Below, piece after piece: positions 2,245 through 29,784 of a stretch of DNA of 64,000 nt; within the stretch, counting starts at the first letter, position 1, and every line of letters starts with the position of its first letter. Below the pieces are notes generated by a model. The model was not told the origin of the DNA and made no database searches. It saw nothing but the letters and a program-made list of their open reading frames with translations. Both the position numbers and the translations under genes were made by a program. Source of the stretch: an uncultured Algibacter sp. (GTDB lineage: Bacteria > Bacteroidota > Bacteroidia > Flavobacteriales > Flavobacteriaceae); NCBI RefSeq assembly GCF_947487605.1, contig NZ_CANKXK010000010.1:62001-126000 (forward strand). The letters are read 5' to 3'.

Positions 2245-2263
2245 AAGTGTGTAAATAACACTT
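2245..2263. promoter_or_regulatory. Palindromic operator copy 1 (AAGTGT-GTAAATA-ACACTT), predicted AraR-type site
   Basis: 19-bp inverted repeat shared with six other promoter regions in this window; 92 bp upstream of the GH27 start. Confidence 0.8.
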
Positions 2264-2803
2264 GTTTTTTGTGCAAAATTTTTCTAAATGATGGAAAAAG
2301 ATCTCAAAACACCCCAAAAATCTCTAAATATATCATTAACTAATCCTTGATATAATTTACGCGTAGGCAAGTTTATCTAGATAGTGATTTAAATAAGTGA
2401 CTATGATTTTTGCCAATTATTTTTTGTGATTCATAATATATTTATCTGCAAAAGTCATTAAGATGATTTCTTAGTGACTTAATAATCACAATAACTTGTT
2501 GTTATAATTATTGGTTGCGAGAAAAACGATAGACGAATTAATTGCCTTTTGTGCAAGTGAAAACTTATCCAAAAGACAATTAAAAAGGTTTAATTCTTAT
2601 GAACTTTACTATTGCAATTCGCAATACTTTCTAGAAAGTACATACCCTTACTTAAATGTGAAAGGTTCATCGAATGCACTCTATTGTTGTCCTTTTGAAG
2701 TGTTTTTGACATCTATTAGTTGTCTCAGTTGGTTGTATAGATTGTATTTTGATATGGGGTTTTTGTTATTTAGCGGAGCTGCTATATTTACTCAAAAATA
2801 ATT

Positions 2804-2824
2804 CCCCGGCGCTCTGCGTCGGGG
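2804..2824. repeat. GC-rich hairpin CCCCGGCGCTCTGCGTCGGGG
   Basis: Stem CCCCGGCGC / GCGTCGGGG (one G-T wobble), loop TCT, in an AT-rich intergenic region. Confidence 0.7.
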
Positions 2825-2841
2825 TTTCCATTGAAATTGTC

Positions 2842-2908
2842 ATTCCCGTGAAATCGAAGATTCATGAATCCAATGATTTAAATATGAATTAATGAATAAA
2901 ACGGGAAT
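2842..2908. repeat. ATTCCCGT ... ACGGGAAT inverted repeat enclosing the palindrome GATTCATGAATC
   Basis: ATTCCCGT 2842-2849 and ACGGGAAT 2901-2908; inner 12-bp palindrome 2859-2870. Confidence 0.6.
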
Positions 2909-3201
2909 CTAAATATAAAATTTCGATTTTTGACCATTAAAGGTCAAAATGAAACGCGCGAAATACCTCTATGGCTCTGCCTCGGGGATAGTTCGTTTCA
3001 AGAAAATTTTTATTTGGTCTGTAAATTGGTTTGGATAAATATTTCAGGTTCTTGTTTTAAAGAAGAACAGAATGATATTAAAGTCTCTACAAAACTGAGA
3101 AACTAATAGGTCTAGACTTTATCTAATCTTAAGTGAGGTCGAAAGGCTCTTCTCTATAATACTTAACTAAAAATTAATAATCTATACAGTATAATTTCTG
3201 T

Positions 3202-3220
3202 AAGTGTTGTATTAACACTT
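3202..3220. promoter_or_regulatory. Palindromic operator copy 2 (AAGTGT-TGTATTA-ACACTT)
   Basis: Shared 19-bp motif upstream of the tandem sulfatases; -7-like TATATTTG at 3230-3237. Confidence 0.8.
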
Positions 3221-3307
3221 CTTTTTTTGTATATTTGTTGCTGATTAGTAATTTATTGAAAAGTTTTGATTCATAAAAATAGTTTCCAATTGTTAAATAG
3301 CCTACTT

Positions 3308-5200
3308 ATGTTAAACAAAAAACACATAATTTTAAGTACTTTATTACTTTTAGTGGCTTTTTTTAATGCTAAAGCTCAAGGACTACCAGAAAACCCAAAT
3401 GTTGTTGTCATTCTTACTGATGACCAAGGTTATGCCGATTTTGGTTTTCATGATGACACAGAATTTCCTGCTTCGGCAGATGTACTTACGCCAAATTTAG
3501 ATGCTTTAGCTACTGGAGGTATTTATTTTCGTAATGGTTACGCAGCAAATGCTACTTGCGGACCTTCTAGAGCTTCTTTATTAACAGGTCGTAGTTGTAG
3601 TCGATTTGGAATGGAAGGTAATGATAATTGGGCTAATGGAGATACGGGACCTTTAGATACAGAAATTTTTCTTCCTAAACTTCTTGAAAATACAGCTTAT
3701 GTTTCTGGTGCTATAGGAAAATGGCATTTAGGAACAGCAAGTAATGATTTGCGTCCTATAGGAAGAGGCTTTAATTATTATTGGGGGAATGATGAATATA
3801 CAACAGAACCTGAAGGTACTGCATTGGGGTATTACAAAGATTATAGAATGCAAAGAGCTGGTTTAGAGCTTCCTCCTTGCTGGGTGTCTCAAGGAGGAGC
3901 TCCTGCTGAGTTTGATATTCCAGATTACGGAAAATATTTAACAGATGCTGTAACTGATGAAGCGCGTTCTTTTATTAAAAGAAATAAAAACAACCCGTTT
4001 TTTGCTTATGTGGCTTATCATGCACCTCATAGCCCGTTTCAAGTAAAGGAAGCAACTATTCAGCGCATTGTAGCACATAAACCAAGTTTACAGACCGTTT
4101 ATGATCGTTTGTTAACCTATACAGATATGTGGTCAGGTACAGGAGGTGAAAGATTGTTTGATCATAAAGAATACAGAAAAAATGAAATAGAAGCAGCAGG
4201 AAAGACCGTTGCAGAAGTTGAAGATAACCTTACTGAAGAATTAAGGTTGTTATATTTAGCCATGTTATTGAAAGTTGATGATGGTGTTGGTGACATTATG
4301 CAGACTTTAGAAGATGAAAATTTATTGGATAATACCCTTATTATTTATTTAAGTGATAATGGAGGTGCTTTAGAGAGACCTGTAGATTTTGGTTGTGTTA
4401 ATTTACCTCTAAGAGATGGTAAAGGAAGTATTTATGACGGTGGTAATAGAGTCCCTTTTGTAATGAATTGGAAAAATGTTTTACCAGCAGGACAAGAATC
4501 TGATTTAATGGTGTCTGCCATGGATATATTTACAACTACAGCTGAACTGGCAGGAGTAGATTTGCCTTCTGACCGTGTTATTGATGGTGTAAATTTAATA
4601 CCGTATTTAATAGGTGATAAACAAGGAGAAGTAGCACATGAGTACTTGTTTTTTAGAAGAACTAATGATAATATATATGCCATTAGAACTGGTGATGAAA
4701 AATTAGTAAGAAACATTAACGAGCAGTCTGGAAAAAACAGAGTACATACTATAGGTGGCGATTTATACGATATACAAAACGATATTACAGAGTTAAATCC
4801 TATTACAGATACTTCAAGAAAAGACGAATTACAAACACTTTATGATACCTATGTAAAGGATTTACCACCGCCAGTAACTTTTGATGAATCAAGTTCAAGT
4901 GAGTTATATATAGGTTTAACACTTTCAGCTGAAGATCCAAATAATCAAAAAACGATTAATTTATACCCTAATCCTGTTGCTTCTATTTTTAATATTACAT
5001 TCTCAACAGCAAATCAATTTAAAGGAGACATAGAACTACATACTATTGAAGGGCGTTCTGTATATAAAAAATCACAAGTATTTACTGGAAGTAATATTGT
5101 GCCTTTTGATATTACCAATTTATCTTCTGCTGTGTATATATTAATTGTGAAAGGTGAAAACGGACAAATAGTGTACAAACAAAAACTGATAAAAAAATAA
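3308..5200 (+). CDS. S1-type formylglycine-dependent sulfatase with T9SS C-terminal sorting domain
   Basis: NVVVILTDDQGYADFGFH; FGly motif TCGPSRASLLTGR; GKWHLG; C-terminal IYPNPVASIFNI...IVYKQKLIKK sorting signal. ORF track start 3266 is TTG; ATG at 3308 precedes a signal peptide. Confidence 0.93.
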   Translation: MLNKKHIILSTLLLLVAFFNAKAQGLPENPNVVVILTDDQGYADFGFHDDTEFPASADVLTPNLDALATGGIYFRNGYAANATCGPSRASLLTGRSCSRFGMEGNDNWANGDTGPLDTEIFLPKLLENTAYVSGAIGKWHLGTASNDLRPIGRGFNYYWGNDEYTTEPEGTALGYYKDYRMQRAGLELPPCWVSQGGAPAEFDIPDYGKYLTDAVTDEARSFIKRNKNNPFFAYVAYHAPHSPFQVKEATIQRIVAHKPSLQTVYDRLLTYTDMWSGTGGERLFDHKEYRKNEIEAAGKTVAEVEDNLTEELRLLYLAMLLKVDDGVGDIMQTLEDENLLDNTLIIYLSDNGGALERPVDFGCVNLPLRDGKGSIYDGGNRVPFVMNWKNVLPAGQESDLMVSAMDIFTTTAELAGVDLPSDRVIDGVNLIPYLIGDKQGEVAHEYLFFRRTNDNIYAIRTGDEKLVRNINEQSGKNRVHTIGGDLYDIQNDITELNPITDTSRKDELQTLYDTYVKDLPPPVTFDESSSSELYIGLTLSAEDPNNQKTINLYPNPVASIFNITFSTANQFKGDIELHTIEGRSVYKKSQVFTGSNIVPFDITNLSSAVYILIVKGENGQIVYKQKLIKK

Positions 5201-5273
5201 GATAATAGCAACTGGCATTGTTTTTGTTTTTAGATTTTAAAGAATGATATTCAATTATAAGGTAAATACAATT

Positions 5274-6905
5274 ATGATAAGCAAGAAATTAAAAATTTTT
5301 GGTGGTTTTTTACTTTTATTAGCAATAGTGTCTTTTGCATGTGCAAGTAAAAAGGGAGAAAAATTAAAAAAAGAAGTTGCTACAGAAAACCCATCTAAGA
5401 AACGACCACCAAACGTAATTGTAATTTTAACAGACGATCAAGGTTATGCAGATTTTAGTTTTCATAATCCAAAGGAATTCCCAGCATCAGTAGAAGTATT
5501 AACGCCAAATCTTGAAAAATTAGCAAACGGAGGGGTGTTTTTTAAAAATGGTTATGTCGCAAATTCTACTTGCGGACCGTCTCGATCTTCACTTCTAACA
5601 GGGCGAAGCTCAAGTAGATTTCAAATGGAGGAGAATAATAATTGGAAAAATGGAGATACAGGACCTTTAAATACCGAAATATTCTTACCAAAAATTATTA
5701 AAGAAAAAGGCTATGTATCTGGAGCTTTTGGGAAATGGCATATGGGGGCTATTACCCCAGATTTAAGACCAATAGGTAGAGGCTTTGATTACTTTTGGGG
5801 AGATGATGATTATGCTAAGGAAGATGATATTTCTCATGGCTACTATAAAGATTTTAAAATGATGAAAAAAGGGCTAGATATTCCGCCTTGTTGGAAAAGT
5901 GGCGAGTATCCAATTCCAGCCTATGGTAAATATTTAACCGATGCAGTAACAGACGAAACTTTATCGTTTATAAAAAGAAATAAAGACAATCCATTTTTTG
6001 CTTATGTAGCTTACCATGCACCACATAGCCCGTTTACAGCTAAGGAAAAAACCATCAAACGTATTGTGGCACATCAACCCAAGTTTCAATCGGTTTATAA
6101 TCGGTTAAAGACCAAAACGGATATGTGGATTAAAACAGGCAATGATAGAATGTTCGATCATAGAGCCTATAGAAAAGTGGATGATAATCCAAAAGCTAAA
6201 AAAGAATTAACAGAAGAATTACGATTAATATATTTAGCGATGCTTCTAAAAGTTGATGATGGGGTAGGCAAAATCATGGCACTTTTAGAGGATGAAAATT
6301 TACTAGAAAACACCCTTATTTATTATTTAAGTGATAACGGAGGTGCACTATCCAGACCTGTAGATTTTGGTTGTGTAAACCTGCCTTTGCGTTCAGGGAA
6401 AGGAAGTATTTACGATGGCGGAGTAAGAGTGCCTTATGTGATGCACTGGAAAGGCACATTGCCAGCAGGAGAAGTATCAGATTTAATGGTCTCTTCTATG
6501 GATATATTTACAACTACAGCCGAATTAGCAGGAGCTAAAGTGCCTGCTGATAGAGTTATTGATGGTGTAAATGTAATACCGTATTTAATTGGAGATAAAA
6601 AAGGAGAGGTAGCACATGACTATTTGTTTTTTAGAAGGCATAAGCGCAGTGTGTATTCTATAAGAGTTGGTGATGAAAAATTAGTTGGAAATACCAATAT
6701 AAAAACAGGAAAAAACGGAAGGATAAATACAAACAAATATCCTCATGCTGAAGGGAGTTTATATGATATAGAACATGATATTACTGAGCTTAATGATATC
6801 TCATCCCAACGTCCAGATCGTAAAGCTCAAATACAAGACATCTATAATAAGAATGTAAAAGTACTACCATTGCCTAAGGCCTTTGGTGAATCAAAAAAAG
6901 AATAA
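5274..6905 (+). CDS. S1-type sulfatase, lipoprotein, tandem paralog of the preceding gene
   Basis: Lipobox ...IVSFACAS; NVIVILTDDQGYADFSFHNPKEFPAS; STCGPSRSSLLTGR. High similarity to the upstream sulfatase. Start refined to ATG 5274. Confidence 0.93.
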   Translation: MISKKLKIFGGFLLLLAIVSFACASKKGEKLKKEVATENPSKKRPPNVIVILTDDQGYADFSFHNPKEFPASVEVLTPNLEKLANGGVFFKNGYVANSTCGPSRSSLLTGRSSSRFQMEENNNWKNGDTGPLNTEIFLPKIIKEKGYVSGAFGKWHMGAITPDLRPIGRGFDYFWGDDDYAKEDDISHGYYKDFKMMKKGLDIPPCWKSGEYPIPAYGKYLTDAVTDETLSFIKRNKDNPFFAYVAYHAPHSPFTAKEKTIKRIVAHQPKFQSVYNRLKTKTDMWIKTGNDRMFDHRAYRKVDDNPKAKKELTEELRLIYLAMLLKVDDGVGKIMALLEDENLLENTLIYYLSDNGGALSRPVDFGCVNLPLRSGKGSIYDGGVRVPYVMHWKGTLPAGEVSDLMVSSMDIFTTTAELAGAKVPADRVIDGVNVIPYLIGDKKGEVAHDYLFFRRHKRSVYSIRVGDEKLVGNTNIKTGKNGRINTNKYPHAEGSLYDIEHDITELNDISSQRPDRKAQIQDIYNKNVKVLPLPKAFGESKKE

Positions 6906-7452: not shown

Positions 7453-7471
7453 AAGTGTAAATTTAACACTT
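7453..7471. promoter_or_regulatory. Palindromic operator copy 3 (AAGTGT-AAATTTA-ACACTT)
   Basis: Shared 19-bp motif upstream of the repeat-protein gene at 7573; -7-like TATATTTT at 7442-7449. Confidence 0.8.
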
Positions 7472-7572
7472 ATATGTTTCTCTCATTCTAAATTAACCAC
7501 TGTAATAATTTAAGATAAACAAAATAGGTGTTAAAATAATTGCAATTACTAACTAAATTAAAGATTAAAATC

Positions 7573-8889
7573 ATGAAAAAAAATTACGCTTTTTTAATAC
7601 TACTTTTATCGGTAGTAAGTTTTACTGCTTTTGGGCAAATAACTCATATAACAAATGGAGCTGGTATTAATTGGAATACTACTGCTAATTGGGATGTAGG
7701 TACTGTGCCTGGTACTTCTGCTTCTGATATTCCACAATTATCACATAATATGACCCTTGATGTTGATGTTACGCTTAAATCTGTTGTGTTTAAAAATAGA
7801 ACATTGTCTGGTTCCAATATCTTGACACTTGATGCTAAAAGTATTGAAAGCAACTCTGATGTATCAAATATGAGTGCTAATGGAACCGCAACTATTGAAG
7901 TACCTGTGATTATTAATAATACAGGAACCGATGGTACTAATGGAGGAAGATCAAAAATAAAAATTAGTGGAGGACCAGGGAGAACAATTACTTTTACCTC
8001 TAATTCTTCATTAACAGTAACTACAGTAAGCGAATTATCTTCTGGAAATGGTAATACTATAAATGTAAATTGCAATGTTTCAGGAGTTGAAACTTTACGT
8101 CTTTCTGGTGGTAGTGAAGGTACAGGTGTTGTTAGTTTTACTGGTGATAATACAGGTTTTAGCGGTTCTTTTCAAGTATTTTCTGGTAATATAGAAGCAA
8201 ATAATACAGTACCTGGAGGTTTTTTATCAGAAACAGCGACTAGATATCAAGTGAGTGGTACTTCAACCTTATCATTAAATAACGCTGATATTATGAGAGC
8301 TAATTATAATATTTTTAATGATAATGTGCTTACAATAAACGTCAATGCCAATCAACCATCTATGGGTAATATTGGTTTTGCTTCTGGTGTCAGTGCTACT
8401 GCATCTACTAGCTATAATATAGTTCTTGGAGCTAGTGTTGCTGTTGGATTTGCAAATTCTTCAGCAAAAGAATGGGGAGCAGGAAAAGTTAATATTACAG
8501 GGTTTACAGCAAATTCAGTTAGATTTGGCACAAATGCTAATGGCTTAACACAAGCTCAATTAAATGCAATTTCAATAGATGGTATATTATATTCTGATAA
8601 TAAATTAAGTACAGATGGTTACTTAATAAAAGGTAAAACATTATCAACAAAAAAACTAGATGCATTTAAGTTTACTATGTATCCTAATCCAGTAAAAAGC
8701 GAATTGGCTATTAATAGTAAAGAACCTTTATCGTCTGTAGCAGTATATAACCTGTTAGGAAAAAATGTTTTACAAGCAACTAATAATTTAGAGCGTATTA
8801 GTATGTCTAGTTTAAGTACTGGGATATATGTAGTAAAATTAGAAGCTAAAAATGGAGCGAGTGTAACAAAAAGAATTGTTAAACAGTAA
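7573..8889 (+). CDS. Secreted beta-strand-rich (autotransporter/beta-solenoid-like) protein with T9SS C-terminal domain
   Basis: MKKNYAFLILLLSVVSFTAFGQ signal; NWNTTANWDVGTVPG...; C-terminal MYPNPVKSELAINSK...GIYVVKLEAKNGASVTKRIVKQ. Paralog of 11816-13084. Confidence 0.75.
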   Translation: MKKNYAFLILLLSVVSFTAFGQITHITNGAGINWNTTANWDVGTVPGTSASDIPQLSHNMTLDVDVTLKSVVFKNRTLSGSNILTLDAKSIESNSDVSNMSANGTATIEVPVIINNTGTDGTNGGRSKIKISGGPGRTITFTSNSSLTVTTVSELSSGNGNTINVNCNVSGVETLRLSGGSEGTGVVSFTGDNTGFSGSFQVFSGNIEANNTVPGGFLSETATRYQVSGTSTLSLNNADIMRANYNIFNDNVLTINVNANQPSMGNIGFASGVSATASTSYNIVLGASVAVGFANSSAKEWGAGKVNITGFTANSVRFGTNANGLTQAQLNAISIDGILYSDNKLSTDGYLIKGKTLSTKKLDAFKFTMYPNPVKSELAINSKEPLSSVAVYNLLGKNVLQATNNLERISMSSLSTGIYVVKLEAKNGASVTKRIVKQ

Positions 8890-9001: not shown

Positions 9002-10843
9002 ATGAATGTTCATAAAATCACATTAGTTACAATAGTATTTCTTTTTTGGTTTCAAATTATTTGGACTCAAAGTGGTAGTGCAAAGTTATGTGCAAATGCA
9101 GAGCCTTTGTGTAGTTCAAGTGAGTTTTCTTATCCGAATACCTCTGGACTAAATGGAGGAGAACTTGGTCCAAATTATGGTTGCTTGGGTGGGGTGCTTA
9201 ACCCTTCCTGGTTTTATTTTCAAATTGAGCAACCAGGTAGCATGACCTTACAGATAGAACAGAGCAGAACTTTAGGCGGGGGCGCAAATTTGGATGTGGA
9301 TTATATTCTTTACGGGCCTTTCACCAATCCTGTTTCACCTTGTGTCTCAAATTTAACAGCAGCAAATAATGTAGATTGTAGTTATGCTAACGATGTGGTT
9401 GAATTTGCAAATATAGCAAGTACCAATGCAGGCGATTATTTTTTGCTGTTGATTACTAATATTTCAACAGAAACTGGCTTTATTACCGTAACACAAATTG
9501 CTGGTGCTGCAACTATAAATTGTAAATTATTAGACGCTCCTATCGTTTCAAGTAAAGTTGCTTGTCAAGGCGATGTACTTAATTTAGATGCCACTACAGC
9601 CAATGCCGTAAACTATGTGTGGTATCAAGACGATGGTAGTGGTACAAATACCGATGAGCTTATAGTGGGAGCTAATGGTGCCTCCTTAAATGTTACAGAT
9701 ACAAACGTTTATAAAGCAAAAGCTTTTGATGCCAATAATGTGTTTTTAGAAAGTTACGAATTCAATATTGAATTTTATGAAACACCAAATATACCAATAA
9801 GCATTAGTCCTTATGCTGTTTGTGATAATTTTGGTGATAACGATGGTATTTGCGAATTTAATTTTAATAGTAAAGATGTCGAAATATTAAATGGGCGAAA
9901 CCCTTCAGATTTTTTAGTGACTTATTATAATGAAGCGTCTAAAGCTATTCATGGCAACCTAACCGAATCAATAAGCAGTACCTATATTAATAGTTTGCCT
10001 AAAGAACAGATTTGGGTAAGAGTTGAAAATATTTTAACAAACGATATGATCTGTTACGACGTTGGGTCATTTATCATACAAGGCAATCTTTTGCCCGAAG
10101 CAAATCTAGAATCTGATTACCTGTTGTGTTTAAATACGAATGGGACCGAAGAGGTCGTTACACCTCCCATTATAGATACAGGTTTAGATGTGGCTAATTT
10201 CAGTTTTATATGGAGGTTAAACGGAACAATTTTACCACTTGAAACTAGCAGTACATTAGTACCAGTAAGCGGTGGTGATTATAGTGTTGAGGTAACCAAT
10301 AGAATAACAACTTGTACCAACATATTTAATAGAACAGTATATACAAGCGAACCACCTATGGTAAATGCTGAAGTGGTATCGTATGCGTTTATAGAAGATA
10401 ATGTTGTTGAAGTTACAGCCACAGGCTTGGGGCCACAAGTATATACGTATCGTATAGATGAAGAACCTTGGCAAATGGATAATATTTTTAGAAATGTCCC
10501 TTTAGGCGAACATACTATTACGGTAAAAGATTTAGAAGGCTGTGGGCAAACTGAAAAAACTATTATGGTTATGGATTATCCCAAATATTTTACGCCAAAT
10601 GGAGATGGGGATAATGAAACATGGAATATTGCAGGCATATCAAATCAGATGCAGGCTAGAATACTCATTTTTGATAGGTATGGTAAATTATTAAAACAGT
10701 TAAGTCCTAATGGCAAGGGGTGGGATGGAACCTTTAATGGTGTTTTAATGCCAACAAGCGATTATTGGTTTAATTTAGTTTATACCGAACCTAAAGACGG
10801 TAGTTTAAGAACCTTTAAAGCGCATTTCACACTTAAACGATAG
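9002..10843 (+). CDS. Large secreted protein with T9SS type-B (gliding-motility/CHU_C-like) sorting domain
   Basis: C-terminus YPKYFTPNGDGDNETWNIAGISNQMQARILIFDRYGKLLKQLSPNGKGWDGTFNGVLMPTSDYWF is the classic type-B signature. Confidence 0.85.
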   Translation: MNVHKITLVTIVFLFWFQIIWTQSGSAKLCANAEPLCSSSEFSYPNTSGLNGGELGPNYGCLGGVLNPSWFYFQIEQPGSMTLQIEQSRTLGGGANLDVDYILYGPFTNPVSPCVSNLTAANNVDCSYANDVVEFANIASTNAGDYFLLLITNISTETGFITVTQIAGAATINCKLLDAPIVSSKVACQGDVLNLDATTANAVNYVWYQDDGSGTNTDELIVGANGASLNVTDTNVYKAKAFDANNVFLESYEFNIEFYETPNIPISISPYAVCDNFGDNDGICEFNFNSKDVEILNGRNPSDFLVTYYNEASKAIHGNLTESISSTYINSLPKEQIWVRVENILTNDMICYDVGSFIIQGNLLPEANLESDYLLCLNTNGTEEVVTPPIIDTGLDVANFSFIWRLNGTILPLETSSTLVPVSGGDYSVEVTNRITTCTNIFNRTVYTSEPPMVNAEVVSYAFIEDNVVEVTATGLGPQVYTYRIDEEPWQMDNIFRNVPLGEHTITVKDLEGCGQTEKTIMVMDYPKYFTPNGDGDNETWNIAGISNQMQARILIFDRYGKLLKQLSPNGKGWDGTFNGVLMPTSDYWFNLVYTEPKDGSLRTFKAHFTLKR

Positions 10844-10892: not shown

Positions 10893-11606
10893 TTATAATT
10901 TAAGATAAAAGTTATCCGTTAATTTAGCGTTGTATTTTTCTCCATCAAACATATAAAGAAAAGAGCCTTTGGTTGAAGAGCTCATATCTTTCTCGTTTAA
11001 TTTGATAAGGATATCCATGCTGTTTATTTTATTTATAAAATTTCTTTTGTCAAGTGGCTTATCCAAAATAGCTTCATATAATTTTTGAAGCTGTAGCATC
11101 GTAAACTTTTCAGGTAATAAATTAAAACCAATAGGCACTATAGAGGTTCTTCTTCTTAATCTTTTAAGACCTTTGTCAAGCATTTTGTCGTGGTCAAAAA
11201 TCAATTTAGGCACTTCAGCTATACTATGCCAACTAGCATTGTAATTTTCAATGAGCTCTTCATTATGCCTTTCAATATCTATTAAGGCATAATAAGAAAC
11301 AGAAAGTGTACGCTCTACAGGGTCTCTATCTATTTCGCTGTAAGTGTAAAACTGTTCCATATATATATCGTGTACACCAGTAAGTGTATAAAGAATTCTT
11401 GAAGCAGCTTCATCAAGAGTTTCATTTACTTTTAAAAAGCCACCAATTAAAGACCATTTGCCTCTTTCGGGTTCAAAATCTCTTTTAATTAAAAGAATTT
11501 TTAAGCCTTCTTCATCAAATCCAAAAATAATACAGTCAATTGCAAGCATTACTTTGTCTTCTTTGGTGTAACTATTTAGCATAGAGGTTCTATTTAACGT
11601 TAGCAT
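10893..11606 (-). CDS. araR: Nudix-related transcriptional regulator, NrtR/AraR-type
   Basis: N-terminal Nudix-like fold (LAIDCIIFGFDEEGLKILLIKRDFEPERGKWSLIGGFLKVNETLDEAASRILYTLTGV) with degenerate Nudix box, plus C-terminal winged-helix-like region (FTMLQLQKLYEAILDKPLDKRNFINKI). araBDA genes in the same locus. Symbol by inference. Confidence 0.8.
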   Translation of the reverse strand: MLTLNRTSMLNSYTKEDKVMLAIDCIIFGFDEEGLKILLIKRDFEPERGKWSLIGGFLKVNETLDEAASRILYTLTGVHDIYMEQFYTYSEIDRDPVERTLSVSYYALIDIERHNEELIENYNASWHSIAEVPKLIFDHDKMLDKGLKRLRRRTSIVPIGFNLLPEKFTMLQLQKLYEAILDKPLDKRNFINKINSMDILIKLNEKDMSSSTKGSFLYMFDGEKYNAKLTDNFYLKL

Positions 11607-11715: not shown

Positions 11716-11734
11716 ACGTGTAAATATAACACTT
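11716..11734. promoter_or_regulatory. Palindromic operator copy 4 (ACGTGT-AAATATA-ACACTT)
   Basis: Same 19-bp motif (one mismatch) in the divergent intergenic region between the regulator and the repeat-protein gene; -7-like TATCTTTA at 11707-11714. Confidence 0.78.
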
Positions 11735-11815: not shown

Positions 11816-13084
11816 ATGAAAAAAAATTACACATTTTTATTATTAATTATGTCTGTTGTGGGCTTTACTGCTTTTGGACAAGCTACTCGCACTTGGGATG
11901 GTGGAGGAGCTAATAACAATTGGAGTACAGCAGCTAACTGGAGTGATGATACTGTTCCAGTTGCTGGTGATACAGCAGTTTTAAATGCAGATGTAACAAT
12001 GGATGTTGATGCTACTGTAGAGTTGCTTTCTGTTACAGCTAATACTACATTGTCAGGTTCTGGTACGTTAACTATTGATACTACAGGGAATGCTACAAAT
12101 CATGCGTCAGGAATTTTAGTAACTGGAGCTGACTTAGTAATTAGTGCGCCTTTAGTTATTGTTAATACGGATGGGCAAAGAGTTAAAGTAGAAATAGCTA
12201 GTGGTGCAGCTGGTACCATTTCTTTCTCTGGAGCAGTAACTCATTCAAATGATGTAGATCATGGATCTGGAGATGATGCTTCAAGTAAAATTTCTTACTC
12301 TGGTTCTCTAACTACTGCGAATAATTTTCGTATTGGAGGTAATGTTGAGCTTGCTACTGGGTTTGATGGTTCTGCAGCAACGGATGATGTTCAATTATTT
12401 TCAGGTAAGTTAGATATTGCTGGTACCGATATTGTTCTTGCTGATTTAGGGTTTTCGGAATATGAAGGAAGAGCTAATAGTTCTGCAGTTTTAGAGTTTA
12501 ATGTTGCAAATACTTTAGATACACCTATACGTGTTTTTGCTGGAAAAAACTTAACTCTTAATGTTAATACTAACCAAACGGCAAATACGAATACTCTTGA
12601 TGTTCAAGGAAATCTTGTTATAGCAATTACAAATGGTTCAGATCTTTCTTTTTCAAATTCAAGCGGAAAAGATTGGACAGGAGGTACTGTTACTATTACA
12701 GGAGCAACTTATGATGGCTCTAAGGTTAGTAATGTTAAATTTGGTTCTAATGATACTGACTTAACTGTAGATCAGTTAGCTTTAATCTCAATGGATGGAT
12801 ACACGGGTACTACAATTAATGCAAGTGGTTTTTTAGTGCAAGGTAACACGCTTTCGGTTGATAAGTTTGTTAATGAAAGCGCAAAAAGAATATCTTATCC
12901 ATCTTTCGTAGATGCTAATATTACATTTTCTAAAACTATACAAACTGTAAAACTAGTTAATATTTCTGGTCAACTTATTAGAGAAAAAAATAATGCATCA
13001 AGTTTAGACGTTTCAAGTTTAAAATCTGGATTATATTTCTTAGTACTTGATAATGCTAAAGTTGAGAAGTTTGTGAAGAAATAG
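11816..13084 (+). CDS. Secreted beta-strand-rich protein with T9SS C-terminal domain, paralog of 7573-8889
   Basis: MKKNYTFLLLIMSVVGFTAFGQATRTWDGGGANNNWSTAANWSDDTVP; C-terminal VKLVNISGQLIREKNNASSLDVSSLKSGLYFLVLDNAKVEKFVKK. Confidence 0.75.
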   Translation: MKKNYTFLLLIMSVVGFTAFGQATRTWDGGGANNNWSTAANWSDDTVPVAGDTAVLNADVTMDVDATVELLSVTANTTLSGSGTLTIDTTGNATNHASGILVTGADLVISAPLVIVNTDGQRVKVEIASGAAGTISFSGAVTHSNDVDHGSGDDASSKISYSGSLTTANNFRIGGNVELATGFDGSAATDDVQLFSGKLDIAGTDIVLADLGFSEYEGRANSSAVLEFNVANTLDTPIRVFAGKNLTLNVNTNQTANTNTLDVQGNLVIAITNGSDLSFSNSSGKDWTGGTVTITGATYDGSKVSNVKFGSNDTDLTVDQLALISMDGYTGTTINASGFLVQGNTLSVDKFVNESAKRISYPSFVDANITFSKTIQTVKLVNISGQLIREKNNASSLDVSSLKSGLYFLVLDNAKVEKFVKK

Positions 13085-20665: not shown

Positions 20666-20692
20666 AATAAAATAGCCAAATAGAATACAATT

Positions 20693-22996
20693 ATGAAAAA
20701 CCTACAATCATTAAAAGTAATACTGATTTTATTTAGCGGAATGAATTTCTGTTATGCACAATTAGTAAATAAAGATATATTTCAAAATGACACCTATCCA
20801 AAATCTTTTGTATTTAGGTTTCTTTCAGAAAAAACACATCAATTTGACAACTACTCAGATTGGGAAAAAAATTTAGTTAAGTTAGATGGTTTTATTGGAA
20901 AAATGTTCACAGAAGAGCTGCCTACTTTCGATACTGCCAAAAGTGCTAGTTGGTTCAATCAGTTTGCTGTCAACCATCCTGAGAAATTAGTTATGGTACA
21001 TTTTAACGGAAGAGAACGAGATCCACGTATGAATAACGGTACATTATATTTTGCAGGTCATTGGATGTATCATCCTGGAACAACTTCAACTGAAGCTATA
21101 ACAACTTCGCAAACCACTATTACAGTAAACGATGCCTCAGTTTTTAGGTTAAGCTTTGGTAATGGACGTGCAGATAGAGATGATGATATAATTATTGTAC
21201 CTCTTGATGGTTCTGGAAATAGGCTCTGGGATCAATCAGAACAAGTAACATTGGTCTCAAAAAACGGAAATCAAATAGAAGTGATAAGAGGACGTTATGG
21301 TACTACAGCAAAAAATTTCGATGCAGGAGTATATTTAGCACCTCATGTTGTAGGTGGGCCTTGGAATGACAATAACTTGGTTTGGTTATACAATTATGCA
21401 ATTGATTCTCCAGTAGATAGTAACGGAAAACGCTGTATTGATGTTTTTTCTGATGAAGTATCGGGTTGGTTTAACCCTGGAGGTTTGTTAGAATCTGTAG
21501 ATGGTATTCAATTTGATATTTCTCCTCGTTATGTGGACTATAGAAACGCTAGGGAAGTTGATCAAAATAATGATGGAGTAGGTGATAATTATTCTCCAGA
21601 ACTTCGTGAAAAATACGAGTTGGGAGTTGTGGCGTTTTATGAGTTTTTGAGAACTAAAATGGGTGCTGGAAAAATGATTATGGCAGATGGAGGGAGTTTT
21701 CGAAACCAACGCGTTGCATCTGTTATAAATGGTATAGAAGCAGAAGGTTTTGGGGATATAAAAAATACTTATAAACAGTTTTCTAAATCGGTAAATTCGT
21801 TTAATTATTACACATCAATTTCCAATGCTCCAAAGTTTAGTTATGTAACTCACAAGGACAATGAGAGTACTACTGATGATGAATTTAGAAAGCGCGAACG
21901 TTTTGTGTTAGCATCTTCACAATGTTTGGGGATTGCTTTTAATTCTTTTGTGCGTAAATATCCTAGACACCCAGGAACAAGTATTATTATTCAAGACGAG
22001 TTATATGCAGGTAATTTGGCTATCCCACATTGGTTAGGAGCACCTTTAGGAGATTATATAGATTTGTCTGAGAGTACAGCAGATTTATGGAACAATAATG
22101 GATTAACCACTTTAATGACTTCAACAGAAAATACCTTTTGCACCATTACTCAGTTTAACAGAAGGTTACGAGTTTCTATTAATAATAACGAACGAGAAGC
22201 TACAGTTACTTTTAAGAATGTTACGGTGCCATCTGGAGATTTTGTATTTAGTTTTGATGCACTAGCTAAAGCTAAATTAGATGCTTTTCCTGAAGAAACG
22301 CCAAGATTGATAAAAATGGAAATACTGGGAGGAGCAAATTATGATAATGATGCAGAAGAAATATTAGGATTCTTTTCTACTGATAAAGCTTATAAAACAA
22401 GTTATTACATTAGAGATATAGGTGTTACAACTGTAGATATTAAGTTAACTATTGAAGGTGATGCGAATATTGATCTGACAAACTTTAGATTACGACCAGC
22501 AGCTCAAGCATTGGCAAGAGCCTTTGAAAACGGAGTTGTTTTGTCTAACCCGTCTATTAGCGATTATACCTTTGATTTAAGTCAATTATTTCCAGGAAGA
22601 TCTTTTAAAAGATTAACAGCAACTTCAGGGCATGATACAGTAGTAAATGATGGTTCTGATGTAGGTGCAACAGTTACAGTACCTGCTTTAGATGGTTTAT
22701 TTTTATTAGATAATGGCACTACACTTAGTAGTAATGATGATATTAAGTTGGATAATGATATCCGTATTTATCCAAATCCAGCGGACGATGTTCTTAATAT
22801 TCTAGTGCCTATTGCTCTAAAAAACAAAAGTTTAACAGCAGATTTATACGATGTTAATGGCAGACGAGTTTTTAGTAAGGTTATAAATAATGGAGAAAGA
22901 AACACCTTAAACTTAAACCAATTACAGCAAGGGCTATATATAATAAAAGTTACTGGGAATAATTTTTCGCAATCAAAAATTATTTCAAAGAATTAG
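20693..22996 (+). CDS. Secreted putative glycoside hydrolase of unclear family with T9SS C-terminal domain
   Basis: 767 aa; VDGIQFDISPRYVDYRN and SVINGIEAEGFGD; ALARAFENGVVLSNPS; C-terminal IYPNPADDVLNILVP...GLYIIKVTGNNFSQSKIISKN. Confidence 0.65.
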   Translation: MKNLQSLKVILILFSGMNFCYAQLVNKDIFQNDTYPKSFVFRFLSEKTHQFDNYSDWEKNLVKLDGFIGKMFTEELPTFDTAKSASWFNQFAVNHPEKLVMVHFNGRERDPRMNNGTLYFAGHWMYHPGTTSTEAITTSQTTITVNDASVFRLSFGNGRADRDDDIIIVPLDGSGNRLWDQSEQVTLVSKNGNQIEVIRGRYGTTAKNFDAGVYLAPHVVGGPWNDNNLVWLYNYAIDSPVDSNGKRCIDVFSDEVSGWFNPGGLLESVDGIQFDISPRYVDYRNAREVDQNNDGVGDNYSPELREKYELGVVAFYEFLRTKMGAGKMIMADGGSFRNQRVASVINGIEAEGFGDIKNTYKQFSKSVNSFNYYTSISNAPKFSYVTHKDNESTTDDEFRKRERFVLASSQCLGIAFNSFVRKYPRHPGTSIIIQDELYAGNLAIPHWLGAPLGDYIDLSESTADLWNNNGLTTLMTSTENTFCTITQFNRRLRVSINNNEREATVTFKNVTVPSGDFVFSFDALAKAKLDAFPEETPRLIKMEILGGANYDNDAEEILGFFSTDKAYKTSYYIRDIGVTTVDIKLTIEGDANIDLTNFRLRPAAQALARAFENGVVLSNPSISDYTFDLSQLFPGRSFKRLTATSGHDTVVNDGSDVGATVTVPALDGLFLLDNGTTLSSNDDIKLDNDIRIYPNPADDVLNILVPIALKNKSLTADLYDVNGRRVFSKVINNGERNTLNLNQLQQGLYIIKVTGNNFSQSKIISKN

Positions 22997-23179: not shown

Positions 23180-23198
23180 AAGTGTTATTTTAACACTT
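23180..23198. promoter_or_regulatory. Palindromic operator copy 6 (AAGTGT-TATTTTA-ACACTT)
   Basis: Shared 19-bp motif; -7-like TATATTTA at 23171-23178. Confidence 0.82.
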
Positions 23199-23233
23199 GT
23201 AAAGTGTCATATTTTTTAAAACTGATTAAAATA

Positions 23234-24559
23234 GTGAAGCGTATTTGCATAATATTTTTATTGATGCTTATCACATTTTCTTGCCATGCACAGGAAAAAC
23301 CAAATGTTGTAATATTATTTGTTGATGATTATGGCTGGTCAGATGTGGGTTATAGAAATTCGAAATTTCACACTCCTAATATTAACCAATTAAAAAATGA
23401 AGGTTTAGAATTTACTCGGGCATACATTCCAACACCCACATGCAGCCCAAGTAGAGCAACATTGCTAACAGGAAAAGAGGCTATAAGAATGGAGTTGCCT
23501 CGTCATATATCTGGAGGGGCAGATAATGAATATAACTATTGGCCTAATGACCCTGCGAAAATGCCTTCTAGAAATTGGCTACAATTAGAAGAAATAACTT
23601 ATGCAGAAAGATTAAAAGAGTTTGGATATTATAATATGTTTATAGGTAAATGGCATTTGGGAGAAGAACCTTATTACCCAATTCATCAAGGTTTTGATGA
23701 ACAGTTTGGAGTAACAAGTGCTTCACATCCTAAAAGTTATTATCCTCCTTATTTCAATTCAAAAAATGATACATATAATTTTTCAAAGAACAGCTTAAAG
23801 AATGATTATTTAACGGATGTTTTAACAGATAAGGCAGTTAGTTTTATTGAAAATTATGATAAAGACAAACCCTTTGTGCTATCATTTTGGTATTATAACG
23901 TACATAGTCCTCATGTTGGCAGAACAGATTGGGTAAAGAAATATAAAGAAGAAGGTTTTGAAGGGGCTTATGCAGAATATGCGGCTATGGTTTCAGCTAC
24001 TGATGAATCTGTAGGAAGAGTGAGAAAAGCTCTGGAAGATAAGGGTATAGCTAATAACACAGTTATTTTATTAATATCGGACCAAGGAGGTAAATTTACG
24101 AATGCACCTTTAAGCGGCGGTAAAATTGGTGGTAACACTTTGGGAGAAGGAGGAGCCAGAGTACCTTTTATTGTGTATTACCCAAGTGTAACTACAGCAA
24201 ATAGTGTTTGCGATTCACCCATACAAACCATCGATGTGTATCCCACTTTGGTTGAAATAGCTAGTGGAAAAAGATGTTTAGATAAACAGATTAATGGTAA
24301 GAGCTTACTACCTTTAATACATGGAGAAACTTTAGAAACACGAGACCTTTATTTTTTTCGTAGTTATGAAGACCAATATGCAGCCATTATGAATGGCAAT
24401 TGGAAATTGATAAAATACAGGAGTGGCAAGTATAAATTATTTAATGTTAAAGAGGATATTTCTGAAAAGAAAGATTTAATCAATGAAGAAATTGAAATTG
24501 GAAAAACATTGAAAACTAAATTACTAAATTGGGAAAAAGAAGCAGTACCAAGTTATTGA
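23234..24559 (+). CDS. S1-type sulfatase
   Basis: KPNVVILFVDDYGWSDVGYRN; PTCSPSRATLLTGK; GKWHLGEE. Track start 23204 (GTG) is only 5 nt past the operator; GTG 23234 (MKRICIIFLLMLITFSCHAQ) looks more likely. Confidence 0.9.
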   Translation: MKRICIIFLLMLITFSCHAQEKPNVVILFVDDYGWSDVGYRNSKFHTPNINQLKNEGLEFTRAYIPTPTCSPSRATLLTGKEAIRMELPRHISGGADNEYNYWPNDPAKMPSRNWLQLEEITYAERLKEFGYYNMFIGKWHLGEEPYYPIHQGFDEQFGVTSASHPKSYYPPYFNSKNDTYNFSKNSLKNDYLTDVLTDKAVSFIENYDKDKPFVLSFWYYNVHSPHVGRTDWVKKYKEEGFEGAYAEYAAMVSATDESVGRVRKALEDKGIANNTVILLISDQGGKFTNAPLSGGKIGGNTLGEGGARVPFIVYYPSVTTANSVCDSPIQTIDVYPTLVEIASGKRCLDKQINGKSLLPLIHGETLETRDLYFFRSYEDQYAAIMNGNWKLIKYRSGKYKLFNVKEDISEKKDLINEEIEIGKTLKTKLLNWEKEAVPSY

Positions 24560-24624
24560 TGAGGAGTTATAAAACATTTGTGAATTTTTTAAGATTAACT
24601 AAATATAATTATAGAACCGTTATT

Positions 24625-26229
24625 ATGAAAACTGATAAACTAATACTATGTTTTGGCCTTTTAGTCAGTCTTCTTGTAAGCTGTAAAAGCGAAAATAAGG
24701 AGAAACAAGAAGAAAAAACAGAGCGTCCAAATGTACTTTTGGTAGTGGCAGATGATGCTACCGTGAGACACATGGGAGCTTATGGGAGTCACTACATTAA
24801 AACCCCAGCATTTGATAGAGTAGCTAAAGAGGGCGTATTGTTTAACAATGCCTACACCCCTAATGCTAAATGTGCGCCTTCAAGAGCTTCGGTTTTAACG
24901 GGGCGTAATTCTTGGCAATTAGAACAAGGTGGTAATCACATGCCGTATTTCCCATCAAAATTTAAAACCTTTCCAGAAACTTTAAATGAAAACGGATACC
25001 ACGTTGGGTACACAGGAAAAGGATGGTTGCCAGGGGTAGCATTTAATGAAGATGGTTCAAAAAGAAATTTATTGGTAAAGTATTACAACGATGCTAAATT
25101 AAATCCACCTACAACAGAAATTAGCGACTGTGATTATGCTGGAAATTTTGATATGTTCTTGAAAGATAATAAAGAAGATAAACCCTTCTTCTTTTGGTTC
25201 GGATGTTGGGAACCTCATAGACAATACGAATACGAATCAGGACTAAGAGCAGGTAAAAAACTAAACGAAATTGATGAGGTTTTTGCTTTTTGGCCAGATA
25301 ATGATGAGGTTAGAAAAGATATTTTAGACTACGCTTTAGAGTTAGAATATTTTGATGCACAGTTAGGAAAGCTAATCAAACAATTAGAAGACCATAATAA
25401 ATTAGATAATACCATTATTATTGTAACTTCAGATAATGGTATGCCATTCCCAAGAATTAAAGGGCAAGAATATGAATTGTCTAACCACTTGCCATTAGCC
25501 ATTATGTGGCCTAAAGGGATTAAGCAAGCAGATAGAAAAATTGATGATTATGTAAACTTTATTGATTTAGCACCAACAGTTTTAGAATTTGCAGGTATTT
25601 CTCAAGAAGCATCAGGGATGGCAGCTATTGAAGGAAAATCATTAGCACCATTATTAACGGGTGACAAATCAGGTATTGTAGATGCAAGTAGAGACCACAT
25701 TTTAATTGGTAAAGAACGTCACGATATCGGTCGCCCAAATAATATCGGATACCCAATTAGAGGTATTTTTAAAGGTGATTATTTATACCTTAAAAATTTT
25801 AAAACAGACAGATGGCCAGCAGGAAACCCAGAAACAGGTTATTTAAACTGTGATGGAGGGCCAACAAAAACAGCCATTTTAGATACCTATGGTACTAAAG
25901 ATAAAAAGTACTGGGAAATGAGTTTTGGGAAAAGGGTAGAAGAAGAATTATACAATATTAAAACAGATCCATTGTGTATGAATAATTTAGCTGCTAATGC
26001 TGATTTTAAGGCTAAAAAAGAGAAATTGTTTGCACAAATGAAAGCAGAATTAACAGCACAAAAAGACCCAAGAATTTTAGGAGAAGGCGATGTCTTTGAT
26101 AATTACAGAACCTTTCCTCCAAAATTCATGAACTACCACAACAGATTCATAAAAGGTGAAGAAATGCCAGAATTACATTGGGTAAAAGATTCAGACTTTA
26201 GAAAAGAACAAAACACAGATTTAAAATAA
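24625..26229 (+). CDS. S1-type sulfatase, lipoprotein
   Basis: LLVSLLVSCKSE lipobox; RPNVLLVVADDATVRHMGAYGS; AKCAPSRASVLTGR; VTSDNGMPFPR. Start refined to 24625. Confidence 0.92.
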   Translation: MKTDKLILCFGLLVSLLVSCKSENKEKQEEKTERPNVLLVVADDATVRHMGAYGSHYIKTPAFDRVAKEGVLFNNAYTPNAKCAPSRASVLTGRNSWQLEQGGNHMPYFPSKFKTFPETLNENGYHVGYTGKGWLPGVAFNEDGSKRNLLVKYYNDAKLNPPTTEISDCDYAGNFDMFLKDNKEDKPFFFWFGCWEPHRQYEYESGLRAGKKLNEIDEVFAFWPDNDEVRKDILDYALELEYFDAQLGKLIKQLEDHNKLDNTIIIVTSDNGMPFPRIKGQEYELSNHLPLAIMWPKGIKQADRKIDDYVNFIDLAPTVLEFAGISQEASGMAAIEGKSLAPLLTGDKSGIVDASRDHILIGKERHDIGRPNNIGYPIRGIFKGDYLYLKNFKTDRWPAGNPETGYLNCDGGPTKTAILDTYGTKDKKYWEMSFGKRVEEELYNIKTDPLCMNNLAANADFKAKKEKLFAQMKAELTAQKDPRILGEGDVFDNYRTFPPKFMNYHNRFIKGEEMPELHWVKDSDFRKEQNTDLK

Positions 26230-26330
26230 GATAATAAAGATGAAATGAGCCATAACCATTACTTGATACTAAGCGATATGTTAATTGGCGAACTACATCT
26301 GATCATTAAAAAATAAATAAATATTTACAG

Positions 26331-27890
26331 ATGAAACAATACAAAAAGTACATGGCGTATTTGCCTCTATTAGTTTTAGTAATATTGGTGACTTGTTGCA
26401 AAAAAGAAGATAAAAAAGAAGTTGCAATAGCGAAAAATGAAGCTTTAACAGTTTATTCGGCACCAAAAAGCGAAAAACCTTTTGAGGATTATAAAATTAC
26501 TGTTGATGGTTCTGATGTTTTTTGTTACAGCGGAAAAGTATTCGATACCAGATTTACAGAAGGTACACTAATGGGCGAAAGTGAAATAAAATATTCAACC
26601 GTAGGTTTTGGATATTTTGATATTTCAGGAAAAGTAAAAGTATCTGTAAAAGTTAACAGAGAAATTTCGTCGGCAACTATCAGACCCTTATCCAGAAATA
26701 TTGAAGCTACCGTAAAAAATAATACCATTGAATTTTATGTGGATAAACCAGGAGCATTAACTATTGAGCCTGATGGAAACGAGCATAAGGTGTTGCACTT
26801 ATTTGTAAACCCAAAAGAAGAAAATGTACCAAGTCCTGATGATGAAAACGTCATTTATTTTGGTCCAGGAGAACACGTAGTAAATACCATCAAACTAAAA
26901 AGTAATCAAACATTATATGTTGCAGGTGGTGCTGTAGTTTATTTTGATGTATTTGAAGGCGATTCTATTTATAGAAAAGAATATAGAAAAAGACGCCAGA
27001 TAGAATTAGATAGATACGACCATGGTATTGAAGCTATCAATGCTAAAAACATCAAGATTAAAGGAAGAGGTATCCTTGATTTTAATCGTGTTTTGGAGAA
27101 AATGGGACGTAAAAACCCAATACATACCAACAATTGTGATGGTGTAGAAATTGAAGGCGTAATTATGAGAGGAGCTAACTGTTGGCATGCCACTATTTAT
27201 CGTTCTAAAAATGTAGTGATAGATAATATTAAAGAAATAGGAGCTGGTTATAATACGGATGGTTTAAATATTGTTTTAAGTCAAAATGTACATATTAAAA
27301 ACTGTTTTTTAAGACAAAGAGATGATGGTATTGTAATGAAATCGATGGATACAGGAAACATGGATGCTTTTATTGTAGAAGTTCCACAAGAACGTACATC
27401 AACATCAAACGTATTGGTAGAAGATTGTACCATTTGGAGTGATTGGGGTTACGCCTTAGGAATAACTTACGAAACAAGAATGCCTGTTAACGATATTACC
27501 TTTAGAAATTGTGATATCATACATGCCACACATGCAGAAACAGCACAAGGTGTTATTGGTATATTAGTGGCAGATGCAGATGTGGTTTCTAATGTGAAAT
27601 TTGAAAACATCACTATTGAACGTGCCCTAAAACCAATTATTAAATTAGATCAAAGAGTAACACCTTGGACAGTAAATAAAGATTTAGGAGCCATAAAAGA
27701 CATCACGTTTTCAAATATAAAATATTTAAGTGGAGAGCCACAACCAGTTATTTTTCACGGTTTCCCAGGTAAAGGAGGTATTCAAGATATAAAATTAAAA
27801 AATCTAAACTTCTTAGGTAAAGATATTAAAAGCACTGATGATTGGGAGTTTAAAATTAACAAATACGTGAAAGATATTCATTTCGAATAG
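26331..27890 (+). CDS. GH28-like right-handed beta-helix glycosidase, lipoprotein
   Basis: VILVTCCKKE lipobox; repeating beta-helix (IKIKGRGILDFNRVL, VEIEGVIMRGANCWHATIY, NTDGLNIVLSQNVHIKNC, QRDDGIVMKS). Confidence 0.75.
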   Translation: MKQYKKYMAYLPLLVLVILVTCCKKEDKKEVAIAKNEALTVYSAPKSEKPFEDYKITVDGSDVFCYSGKVFDTRFTEGTLMGESEIKYSTVGFGYFDISGKVKVSVKVNREISSATIRPLSRNIEATVKNNTIEFYVDKPGALTIEPDGNEHKVLHLFVNPKEENVPSPDDENVIYFGPGEHVVNTIKLKSNQTLYVAGGAVVYFDVFEGDSIYRKEYRKRRQIELDRYDHGIEAINAKNIKIKGRGILDFNRVLEKMGRKNPIHTNNCDGVEIEGVIMRGANCWHATIYRSKNVVIDNIKEIGAGYNTDGLNIVLSQNVHIKNCFLRQRDDGIVMKSMDTGNMDAFIVEVPQERTSTSNVLVEDCTIWSDWGYALGITYETRMPVNDITFRNCDIIHATHAETAQGVIGILVADADVVSNVKFENITIERALKPIIKLDQRVTPWTVNKDLGAIKDITFSNIKYLSGEPQPVIFHGFPGKGGIQDIKLKNLNFLGKDIKSTDDWEFKINKYVKDIHFE

Positions 27891-27903
27891 TTTCTTAAGT
27901 CAT

Positions 27904-27934
27904 CCTGCAAGGTCTGTTTTTTGGACCTTGCAGG
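27904..27934. repeat. Intergenic 11-bp stem hairpin
   Basis: CCTGCAAGGTC-TGTTTTTTG-GACCTTGCAGG, between the beta-helix gene and the next sulfatase. Confidence 0.75.
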
Positions 27935-28079
27935 TATGGTTTAAACTGGAAGATTTTTTTTATGTTTCCTATTTGTTTCGTTTTAAAGACAACAAGGTTA
28001 AGGTTTACCTGTAGCAATTGAAGACAAGACGTTTTAAAAACTTTAGACCTAAGCGTTAATTTTTTTACAATAACTATCA

Positions 28080-29759
28080 ATGAGTAAGCAGTTTAGAAGT
28101 ATTACTTTTAAAATATCACGCTTTTTAAATTTGGTTTTAAAAAGATGCTTTTTGTTAGTTTTAATTGTTTTTATGGTGTTTTCTTGTAAACGAAAGGAAG
28201 AAAAAATCAAACCTAATTTAATTTTTGTGTATTCAGACCAGCATCGTAGAATGGGTTTGAGTTATTATAATGATGCACGATTTGATGGTACAGTAAATCA
28301 AGGAGACCCCGTAAAAACGCCTAATTTGGATAATATGGCAAAAGAAGGGGTAATATTTCATAATTCAGTAGTCGTTACCCCATTATGTTCACCTAATAGA
28401 GCTACGTTAATGACCGGAAATTATCCTTCCACTCATCAATTGGTTGATAATGCCAATTATCAAAAATTTGATTACGATAATATTACCATAGCTCATATTT
28501 TAAGTAAAAATGGTTACGAAACTGCACATTTAGGCAAATGGCATATTGATAAATACAACAGCAGAAATTGGGAAAAATTTACAGCTACCAAAGACTCCGC
28601 AAAACGAGGTTTTAAATATTGGTATGGAACACCAACGCATAATCATCAGCATTTTGATATACAATGGAATCATTATGAAAATGAAATTGATGGGTTAGGT
28701 GCATATGCTAAAAATGGAAAACCCTTGCCAAATCCGTTTACGCCTTCAAAAGATTATAAAGATTTAGAATTACGAAAACAAGAAAGCTGGGGCCCTAATC
28801 ACCTCACCAGAAAAGCATTAGATTATTTAAAAAACAGCTTCAAGGTTAGAGACAATTCAAAACCATTTGCGTTATATGTGTCATACAATCCGCCACATAC
28901 TATCCATGGACCAAAACCTATCGATGGTAACGAAGCATCTTATCGTATTGCTGGTAAAGCGAAAAAAAACAGTTATTATGGTAAGGGCAGTAAAGGATCA
29001 GAAAGTTTCGATTATAAAGCGCCTCTTGAATATGAAATTCCATATAGAACAGGAACAAATTATTCCGATTCAGTAAGAACAGATTTAAAAAGAAGACCCA
29101 ATGTGCCTAATAATCATTATTCGCAAACCAAATGCTTACCAGGATATTATGGAGCCATCAATTCAATCGACGATAATTTTGGGAAATTAGAAACGTATTT
29201 GGCAAATACACCAGACCCACGTTACCCTGATAAAATGTTAAAAGAAACCTCCATTGTGGTTTATACCGCAGACCATGGAGAAATGATGGGCTCGCAAGGA
29301 AGAATGGTAAAACGAATTTTTTATGAAGAATCTATTGGTGTACCATTAATTATAAGATGGCCAAAGCACATACAAGCAAACACCGAAGAAAACAAGGTGT
29401 TTAATTCCGTAGATTTAGCACCTACATTATTGGGACTTATGGATTTAAGTTTCACAAATTCGGTTGATGGAAAAGATTGGAGTAAATCAATTTTAAGTGC
29501 TGCCGAAAATAAAATAGAATATGCTTTTGTGGGTTATAAAAATTGGCGGTCGGTTAGAACAGAAACGGAGTTGTTTACTATAGAATTTGATGAAAATAGA
29601 GTAGTGCAGCATTCAGAATTTTATAATTTGAAAGAAGATCCATTTCAAATGAATCCTATTATGAATGATTTGACAATTCCAAGAGTCCAAGAATTAAAAA
29701 CCGTATTAGAAGAACACCTTGATAATACTGAAAATAAAAAAATAAAATCTAAAAAGTAA
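28080..29759 (+). CDS. S1-type sulfatase, lipoprotein
   Basis: IVFMVFSCKRKE; PNLIFVYSDQHRRMGLSYYND; PLCSPNRATLMTGNYPSTHQ; YTADHGEMMGSQGRMVKRIFYEESIGVPLIIRWP. Confidence 0.92.
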   Translation: MSKQFRSITFKISRFLNLVLKRCFLLVLIVFMVFSCKRKEEKIKPNLIFVYSDQHRRMGLSYYNDARFDGTVNQGDPVKTPNLDNMAKEGVIFHNSVVVTPLCSPNRATLMTGNYPSTHQLVDNANYQKFDYDNITIAHILSKNGYETAHLGKWHIDKYNSRNWEKFTATKDSAKRGFKYWYGTPTHNHQHFDIQWNHYENEIDGLGAYAKNGKPLPNPFTPSKDYKDLELRKQESWGPNHLTRKALDYLKNSFKVRDNSKPFALYVSYNPPHTIHGPKPIDGNEASYRIAGKAKKNSYYGKGSKGSESFDYKAPLEYEIPYRTGTNYSDSVRTDLKRRPNVPNNHYSQTKCLPGYYGAINSIDDNFGKLETYLANTPDPRYPDKMLKETSIVVYTADHGEMMGSQGRMVKRIFYEESIGVPLIIRWPKHIQANTEENKVFNSVDLAPTLLGLMDLSFTNSVDGKDWSKSILSAAENKIEYAFVGYKNWRSVRTETELFTIEFDENRVVQHSEFYNLKEDPFQMNPIMNDLTIPRVQELKTVLEEHLDNTENKKIKSKK

Positions 29760-29765
29760 AAACAC

Positions 29766-29784
29766 AAGTGTTTTTTTTACACTT
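29766..29784. promoter_or_regulatory. Palindromic operator copy 7 (AAGTGT-TTTTTTT-ACACTT)
   Basis: Shared 19-bp motif 40 bp upstream of araB; consensus -7 box TATATTTG at 29799-29806. Confidence 0.85.

Follow-up and report, generated by a model that had tools for sequence, protein, structure and literature searches.

A putative L-arabinose-responsive AraR regulon with sulfatases, GH27 enzymes and SusCD in an uncultured Algibacter

We observed that a palindrome, AAGTGT-N7-ACACTT, recurs upstream of genes for polysaccharide desulfation, depolymerisation and uptake and for L-arabinose catabolism in an uncultured Algibacter sp., and that, judged by its sequence, it is the operator of AraR, the Nudix/winged-helix L-arabinose repressor already known from Bacteroides. 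We consider it highly probable that the AraR encoded at 10893-11606 controls, through these operators, a regulon that is derepressed by L-arabinose and serves the use of an L-arabinose-containing sulfated polysaccharide; here we infer the binding, the repression, the arabinose response and the substrate. An AraR regulon is a known kind of system, and the novelty lies in the content of the regulon. What began as a motif seen by eye is now a regulon whose repressor, effector and operator can be named, and this carries AraR beyond gut Bacteroides into a polysaccharide pathway that is rich in sulfatases and probably algal.

The window, meaning the whole 64,000-nt stretch of DNA that was analysed, contains seven copies of the palindrome upstream of genes, six of them exact and one with a single mismatch. 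A preliminary description had reported seven copies. All seven exist and six of its positions are right, while the copy placed at 13441 begins at 13440; the number is an undercount for the locus, which has nine sites, including two exact copies upstream of the window. The putative AraR operators and the genes associated with them are the following.

558-2153, minus strand: GH27a (He_PIG, Melibiase_2, Melibiase_C), first of the operon's four GH27
2245-2263, minus strand: operator 1 (AAGTGTGTAAATAACACTT), 91 nt before GH27a
3202-3220, plus strand: operator 2 (AAGTGTTGTATTAACACTT), before the sulfatase pair
3266-6905, plus strand: two sulfatases of 644 aa (with T9SS tail) and 553 aa, CGPSR signatures
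7453-7471, plus strand: operator 3 (AAGTGTAAATTTAACACTT), -7-like TATATTTT ending 3 nt upstream
7540-8889, plus strand: secreted T9SS repeat protein 1, probable start ATG 7573
10893-11606, minus strand: araR, Nudix-like + NrtR/AraR winged-helix regulator
11716-11734, strand given as ".": operator 4 (ACGTGTAAATATAACACTT), one mismatch (ACGTGT), divergent araR/repeat protein 2 promoter
11816-13084, plus strand: secreted T9SS repeat protein 2
13440-13458, plus strand: operator 5 (AAGTGTTATATTTACACTT), 30 nt before SusC, position kept in two Maribacter
13489-18322, plus strand: SusC and SusD
18392-22996, plus strand: two paralogues of an unclassified family, 757 aa and 767 aa (the latter with T9SS tail)
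23180-23198, plus strand: operator 6 (AAGTGTTATTTTAACACTT), -7-like TATATTTA ending 1 nt upstream
23204-29759, plus strand: sulfatase, sulfatase, GH28-like, sulfatase
29766-29784, plus strand: operator 7 (AAGTGTTTTTTTTACACTT), before araB
29825-35616, plus strand: araB, araD, araA, sodium:solute symporter
C10:33858 (window -28142): exact copy outside the window, 52 nt before a transketolase-transaldolase-ThuA gene group
C10:37819 (window -24181): exact copy outside the window, before a secreted 823-aa protein

We compared the number of sites with dinucleotide-preserving shuffles of the window. With at most one mismatch, seven sites were observed versus 0.25 expected, the largest shuffle giving 2, and these counts already exclude chance. 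With at most three mismatches, 50 sites were observed versus 47.7 by chance; there is thus no halo of degenerate sites, and such sites were ignored as regulon members because their number is no higher than chance. Where AAGTGT is followed by ACACTT within 60 nt in the window, the spacer is 7 nt in six cases, and only one other pairing occurs. As had been claimed, all copies are intergenic and just upstream of a gene, ~30-110 nt ahead of a plausible start codon. The arms are fixed and the A/T-rich spacers vary between copies; a symmetrised matrix lengthens the palindrome by ~2 positions per side.

Exact and 1-mismatch pattern searches of the 3.376-Mb genome returned eight exact copies, all within one 58-kb stretch (contig C10, 33858-91784; nominal probability ~4e-12), and zero exact copies of a reversed control pattern in the whole genome. 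Exact copies are confined to this locus, the opposite of the refuting outcome named in the preliminary description, a motif common genome-wide. Together with the 1-mismatch copy at 11716, this gives nine operators in total. Nine further 1-mismatch sites lie elsewhere in the genome and were treated as background, being near the level of the reversed control (6 per strand). The 36-64 kb half of the window holds no operator copy, as described before, and the 20 kb after the window hold none even when one mismatch is allowed.

The 10893-11606 protein is, on sequence grounds, an AraR-type regulator. It matches PF00293 (NUDIX), PF21906 and PF19368 above cut-off, carries NrtR_WHD and AraR_C domains, and aligns without gaps to BtAraR (106/219 identical, 48%; E 1e-70). 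Its Nudix box is degenerate and reads ...NETLDEAASRILYTLTGV, with the replacement of two or three Glu that marks AraR. The arabinose-pocket residues Y5, R34, F36, G47, G48, F49, R86, F129 and H131 are kept here and in 31/31 orthologs, including R34, R86 and H131, which hydrogen-bond L-arabinose; V92 is Thr. The recognition-helix residues D178, K179, R180 (intercalating) and N181 are likewise kept in 31/31 orthologs. At the BtAraR contacts K184, K204 and R205 this protein has N, T and K. Part of the DNA-contact set thus differs from BtAraR, and we call the protein a Flavobacteriaceae branch of AraR that fits the published definition closely but not exactly. These three residues have been called invariant across the phylum, based on a Bacteroides/Prevotella set (PMC4666351); they vary among Flavobacteriaceae orthologs with the operator unchanged, which shows that they are not.

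In Bacteroides thetaiotaomicron, the NrtR-type repressor AraR bound a BT0365 promoter gel-shift oligo containing AAGTGTAAAAAAGACACTT, L-arabinose was the negative effector relieving binding, and the crystal structure shows GTGT recognised by helix 6 and the wing (Chang et al. 2015, PMC4666351). The half-sites and the 7-nt spacer of the BtAraR operator are identical to those of the window sites. As in that AraR (BT0354) regulon, a Nudix-like/wHTH repressor with a conserved L-arabinose pocket is linked to araBDA, and SusCD and polysaccharide-degrading operons would come under its control. Unlike the BtAraR regulon, which targets GH51 and GH43, the one described here has sulfatases, GH27, a GH28-like protein and an unclassified barrel family, it includes transketolase and transaldolase, and its regulator has the three replaced contacts. 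The regulator/operator reading of the preliminary description thus holds; it had left the known family (AraR, NrtR type) unnamed and missed the transketolase and transaldolase genes outside the window.

We next describe the operons, whose limits were set from gene spacing. Operator 1 heads a minus-strand GH27a-GH27b-GH27c-sulfatase-GH27d operon that extends beyond the window to window -5874. The two repeat proteins are paralogues with 32% identity. Between repeat protein 1 and araR lies a 613-aa T9SS type B (CHU_C) surface protein (9002-10843), which perhaps belongs to the operator 3 unit, and the placement of operator 4 between araR and repeat protein 2 makes autoregulation of araR possible. 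SusC adjoins SusD and is accompanied by sulfatases, GH27 and GH28-like genes, as in a polysaccharide utilisation locus (PUL). In total, AraR sites precede six sulfatases, four GH27, SusC/D and an unclassified barrel protein. GH51 is absent from the genome, and its GH43 genes all lie outside the operons headed by an operator. AraD yields D-xylulose 5-phosphate, on which transketolase and transaldolase then act.

Four sites have a TAnnTTTg-like -7 element that stops 1-3 nt short of the palindrome, an arrangement that would place the AraR dimer over the transcription start and fits repression relieved by L-arabinose. No strong -7 match adjoins the operator at the promoters 3202, 29766 and SusC. 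When L-arabinose is absent, an AraR dimer would occupy each AAGTGT-N7-ACACTT site, beside or over the -7 region, and block transcription, a step that we propose by analogy with BtAraR. Imported L-arabinose would enter the Nudix-like pocket and rotate the DNA-binding domains, and the DNA would be released. The nine sites would then open together, giving expression of the GH27/sulfatase operon, the sulfatase pair, the two surface repeat proteins, possibly araR, SusCD with the unclassified glycosidase-like pair, the sulfatase/GH28-like operon and araBDA-symporter, as well as, outside the window, transketolase-transaldolase and the third paralogue of the unclassified protein (823 aa). The prediction is that free L-arabinose induces the nine-site pathway.

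Conservation was assessed in 299 genomes sampled from the family and drawn from 236 genera. AraR orthologs with at least 60% identity occur in 37/299. Exact sites average 1.97 in these 37 genomes versus 0.19 in the 217 without AraR (p ~5e-20, leaving this genome out and counting genomes as independent, which holds only in part); the reversed control averages 0.15 in the 217. In nine relatives, sites precede araB, transketolase and SusC operons, and the araR promoter contains them too. The araR genes of G175, G159 and G134 are 73-77% identical to the one described here (G154, 70%), with the same operator before araB or SusC and near araR. Unlike here, the AraR locus of G175, the one of these four that was annotated, has a neighbouring PUL with GH51, GH43, GH127, GH39 and GH97; this is the classic arabinan set and the ordinary version of an AraR locus.

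Maribacter thermophilus and Maribacter sp. MMG018 (L120, L121) carry an orthologous SusC (50%), SusD (48%), 757-aa protein (54%) and sulfatase (64%), with GH36-, GLAA-B- and GH43-type proteins where this locus has GH27. A 1-mismatch AraR site ~50 nt before the orthologous SusC is the sole operator at that locus, and araR, with its own sites, lies 1.9 Mb off or on another contig. The site is therefore tied to the sulfatase PUL independently of the neighbourhood of araR. G034, the only other genome sampled from this genus, lacks both an AraR match and an exact site; the locus is thus not a fixed trait of the genus, and this suggests that it was gained or lost as a whole within it. A more distant AraR-like group (52-53% identity; G115:C11:476326-476988, G153:C5:263664-264299) also carries exact sites no more than a few kb away, so close orthologs are not alone in sharing the operator. 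Taken with the genome-wide distribution, the identity with the published AraR operator and the conserved effector-binding residues, this conservation across genera supports the earlier proposal of one transcription factor for desulfation, depolymerisation, uptake and catabolism.

Gene content points to a sulfated, probably pyranosic, arabinan as the likely substrate; a sulfated beta-L-arabinopyranan or arabinogalactan of green algae (Codium/Cladophora type) is the most likely one. Both Codium and Cladophora are known to make sulfated arabinans whose backbone is beta-L-arabinopyranose (PMC4178480, PMC9695659). The GH27 family includes beta-L-arabinopyranosidases, and the known ones carry Glu, Ile or Tyr for the alpha-galactosidase Asp. 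All four GH27 of the operon have lost this Asp, which accommodates galactose C6, and carry Cys, Val, Val and Gly, not Glu, Ile or Tyr. Bacteroides plebeius PUL13 is also a sulfatase PUL for an arabinose-containing sulfated glycan; it has different enzymes (GH43_24, GH145), and AraR is unmentioned in its description (PMC8406133). Our literature search on sulfated-arabinan PULs, AraR in Flavobacteriaceae and AraR with sulfatases turned up nothing outside the Bacteroides work. More tentatively, and with somewhat more doubt than belief, we propose that AraR was co-opted from the use of plant-type furanosidic arabinan and became the main switch of an entire pathway for the sulfated beta-L-arabinopyranan of green-algal walls, and that the 757/767/823-aa family is a new polymer-cutting glycoside hydrolase family. 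If this is true, AraR sites offer a means to locate sulfated beta-L-arabinopyranan pathways.

AraR might bind as proposed while the regulon serves the use of plant-type arabinan or unsulfated arabinogalactan; the sulfatases would then play an accessory part or act on another glycan. This is unlikely in our view, although the AraR regulons described to date are devoted to arabinan, arabinoxylan and pectic glycans (PMC4666351), and GH27 and GH28 occur in arabinogalactan systems too. Against plant-type arabinan, the operator-headed operons hold six sulfatases and no GH51 or GH43 in a genome without GH51, and the GH51/GH43 locus of G175 shows what the ordinary version looks like. We judge it quite improbable that AraR is an activator at some sites, or a mere modulator of operons driven mainly by another signal. 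The geometry is not uniform, given the promoters with no strong -7 adjoining the operator, and several Bacteroides AraR targets are under dual HTCS control (PMC4666351); no HTCS was found among the window genes. An activator is opposed by the drop in BtAraR DNA affinity upon arabinose binding, which gives derepression, and by the -7-like element that the operator touches at four promoters.

The genome encodes other candidate readers of the sites, namely a C6 NrtR-type protein, an AraC/PAS regulator (L017:12880-13617) and an IclR regulator (36125-36868), and the C6 protein retains K184 and R180/N181 among the DNA contacts of BtAraR. That one of these reads the sites is nevertheless very unlikely: operators are absent from the surroundings of the C6 gene and from the window half headed by IclR, the Nudix box of the C6 protein is intact, unlike that of AraR, and the operators accompany araR across genera, araR promoters included. 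It is barely credible that the palindromes are chance repeats, terminators or a dispersed repeat element. They are indeed AT-rich inverted repeats within AT-rich intergenic DNA, but the excess over expectation, the fixed arms around differing spacers, the location of all copies 5' of genes and the arms kept at orthologous promoters in other genera argue against this reading.

Two neighbouring gene clusters were also observed. A second PUL at window 36125-63262 (IclR, symporter, FAD oxidoreductase, SusCD, two sulfatases, GH30, GH16, GH2, GH43) has no AraR site and probably answers to another regulator and targets another substrate. In the interval from the outlying sites to the window, a minus-strand cluster (L016:18627-19427 and L017:506-11135) encodes GFO/IDH/MocA oxidoreductases, sugar-isomerase-like proteins, 3-keto-disaccharide hydrolases, an FGGY kinase and an FGE-sulfatase domain protein, and it too has no AraR site.

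Use of the operator nominates the unclassified 757/767/823-aa family as candidate backbone enzyme, and it is a candidate new glycoside hydrolase family. Its three paralogues lie at window 18392-22996 and L016:15821-18292, the 823-aa protein being a paralogue of the two proteins of the SusC operon. PDB and Pfam sequence searches gave no match except for the T9SS tail in one member. The 757-aa protein was predicted as an alpha/beta barrel-like fold with beta domains (pLDDT 80, 13 sequences). In a fold search, the TM-score by target was ~0.5 to GH168 endo-1,3-fucanases, and the E-value leaders were cycloisomaltooligosaccharide glucanotransferases. This resemblance to glycosidases, GH168 fucan endo-hydrolases among them, is at barrel level only, so no family was assigned. 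The 757-aa family is rare among the other genomes of the family (2/298), and it also occurs in Maribacter, Verrucomicrobiota, Rhodopirellula and others, where its neighbours are often sulfatases.
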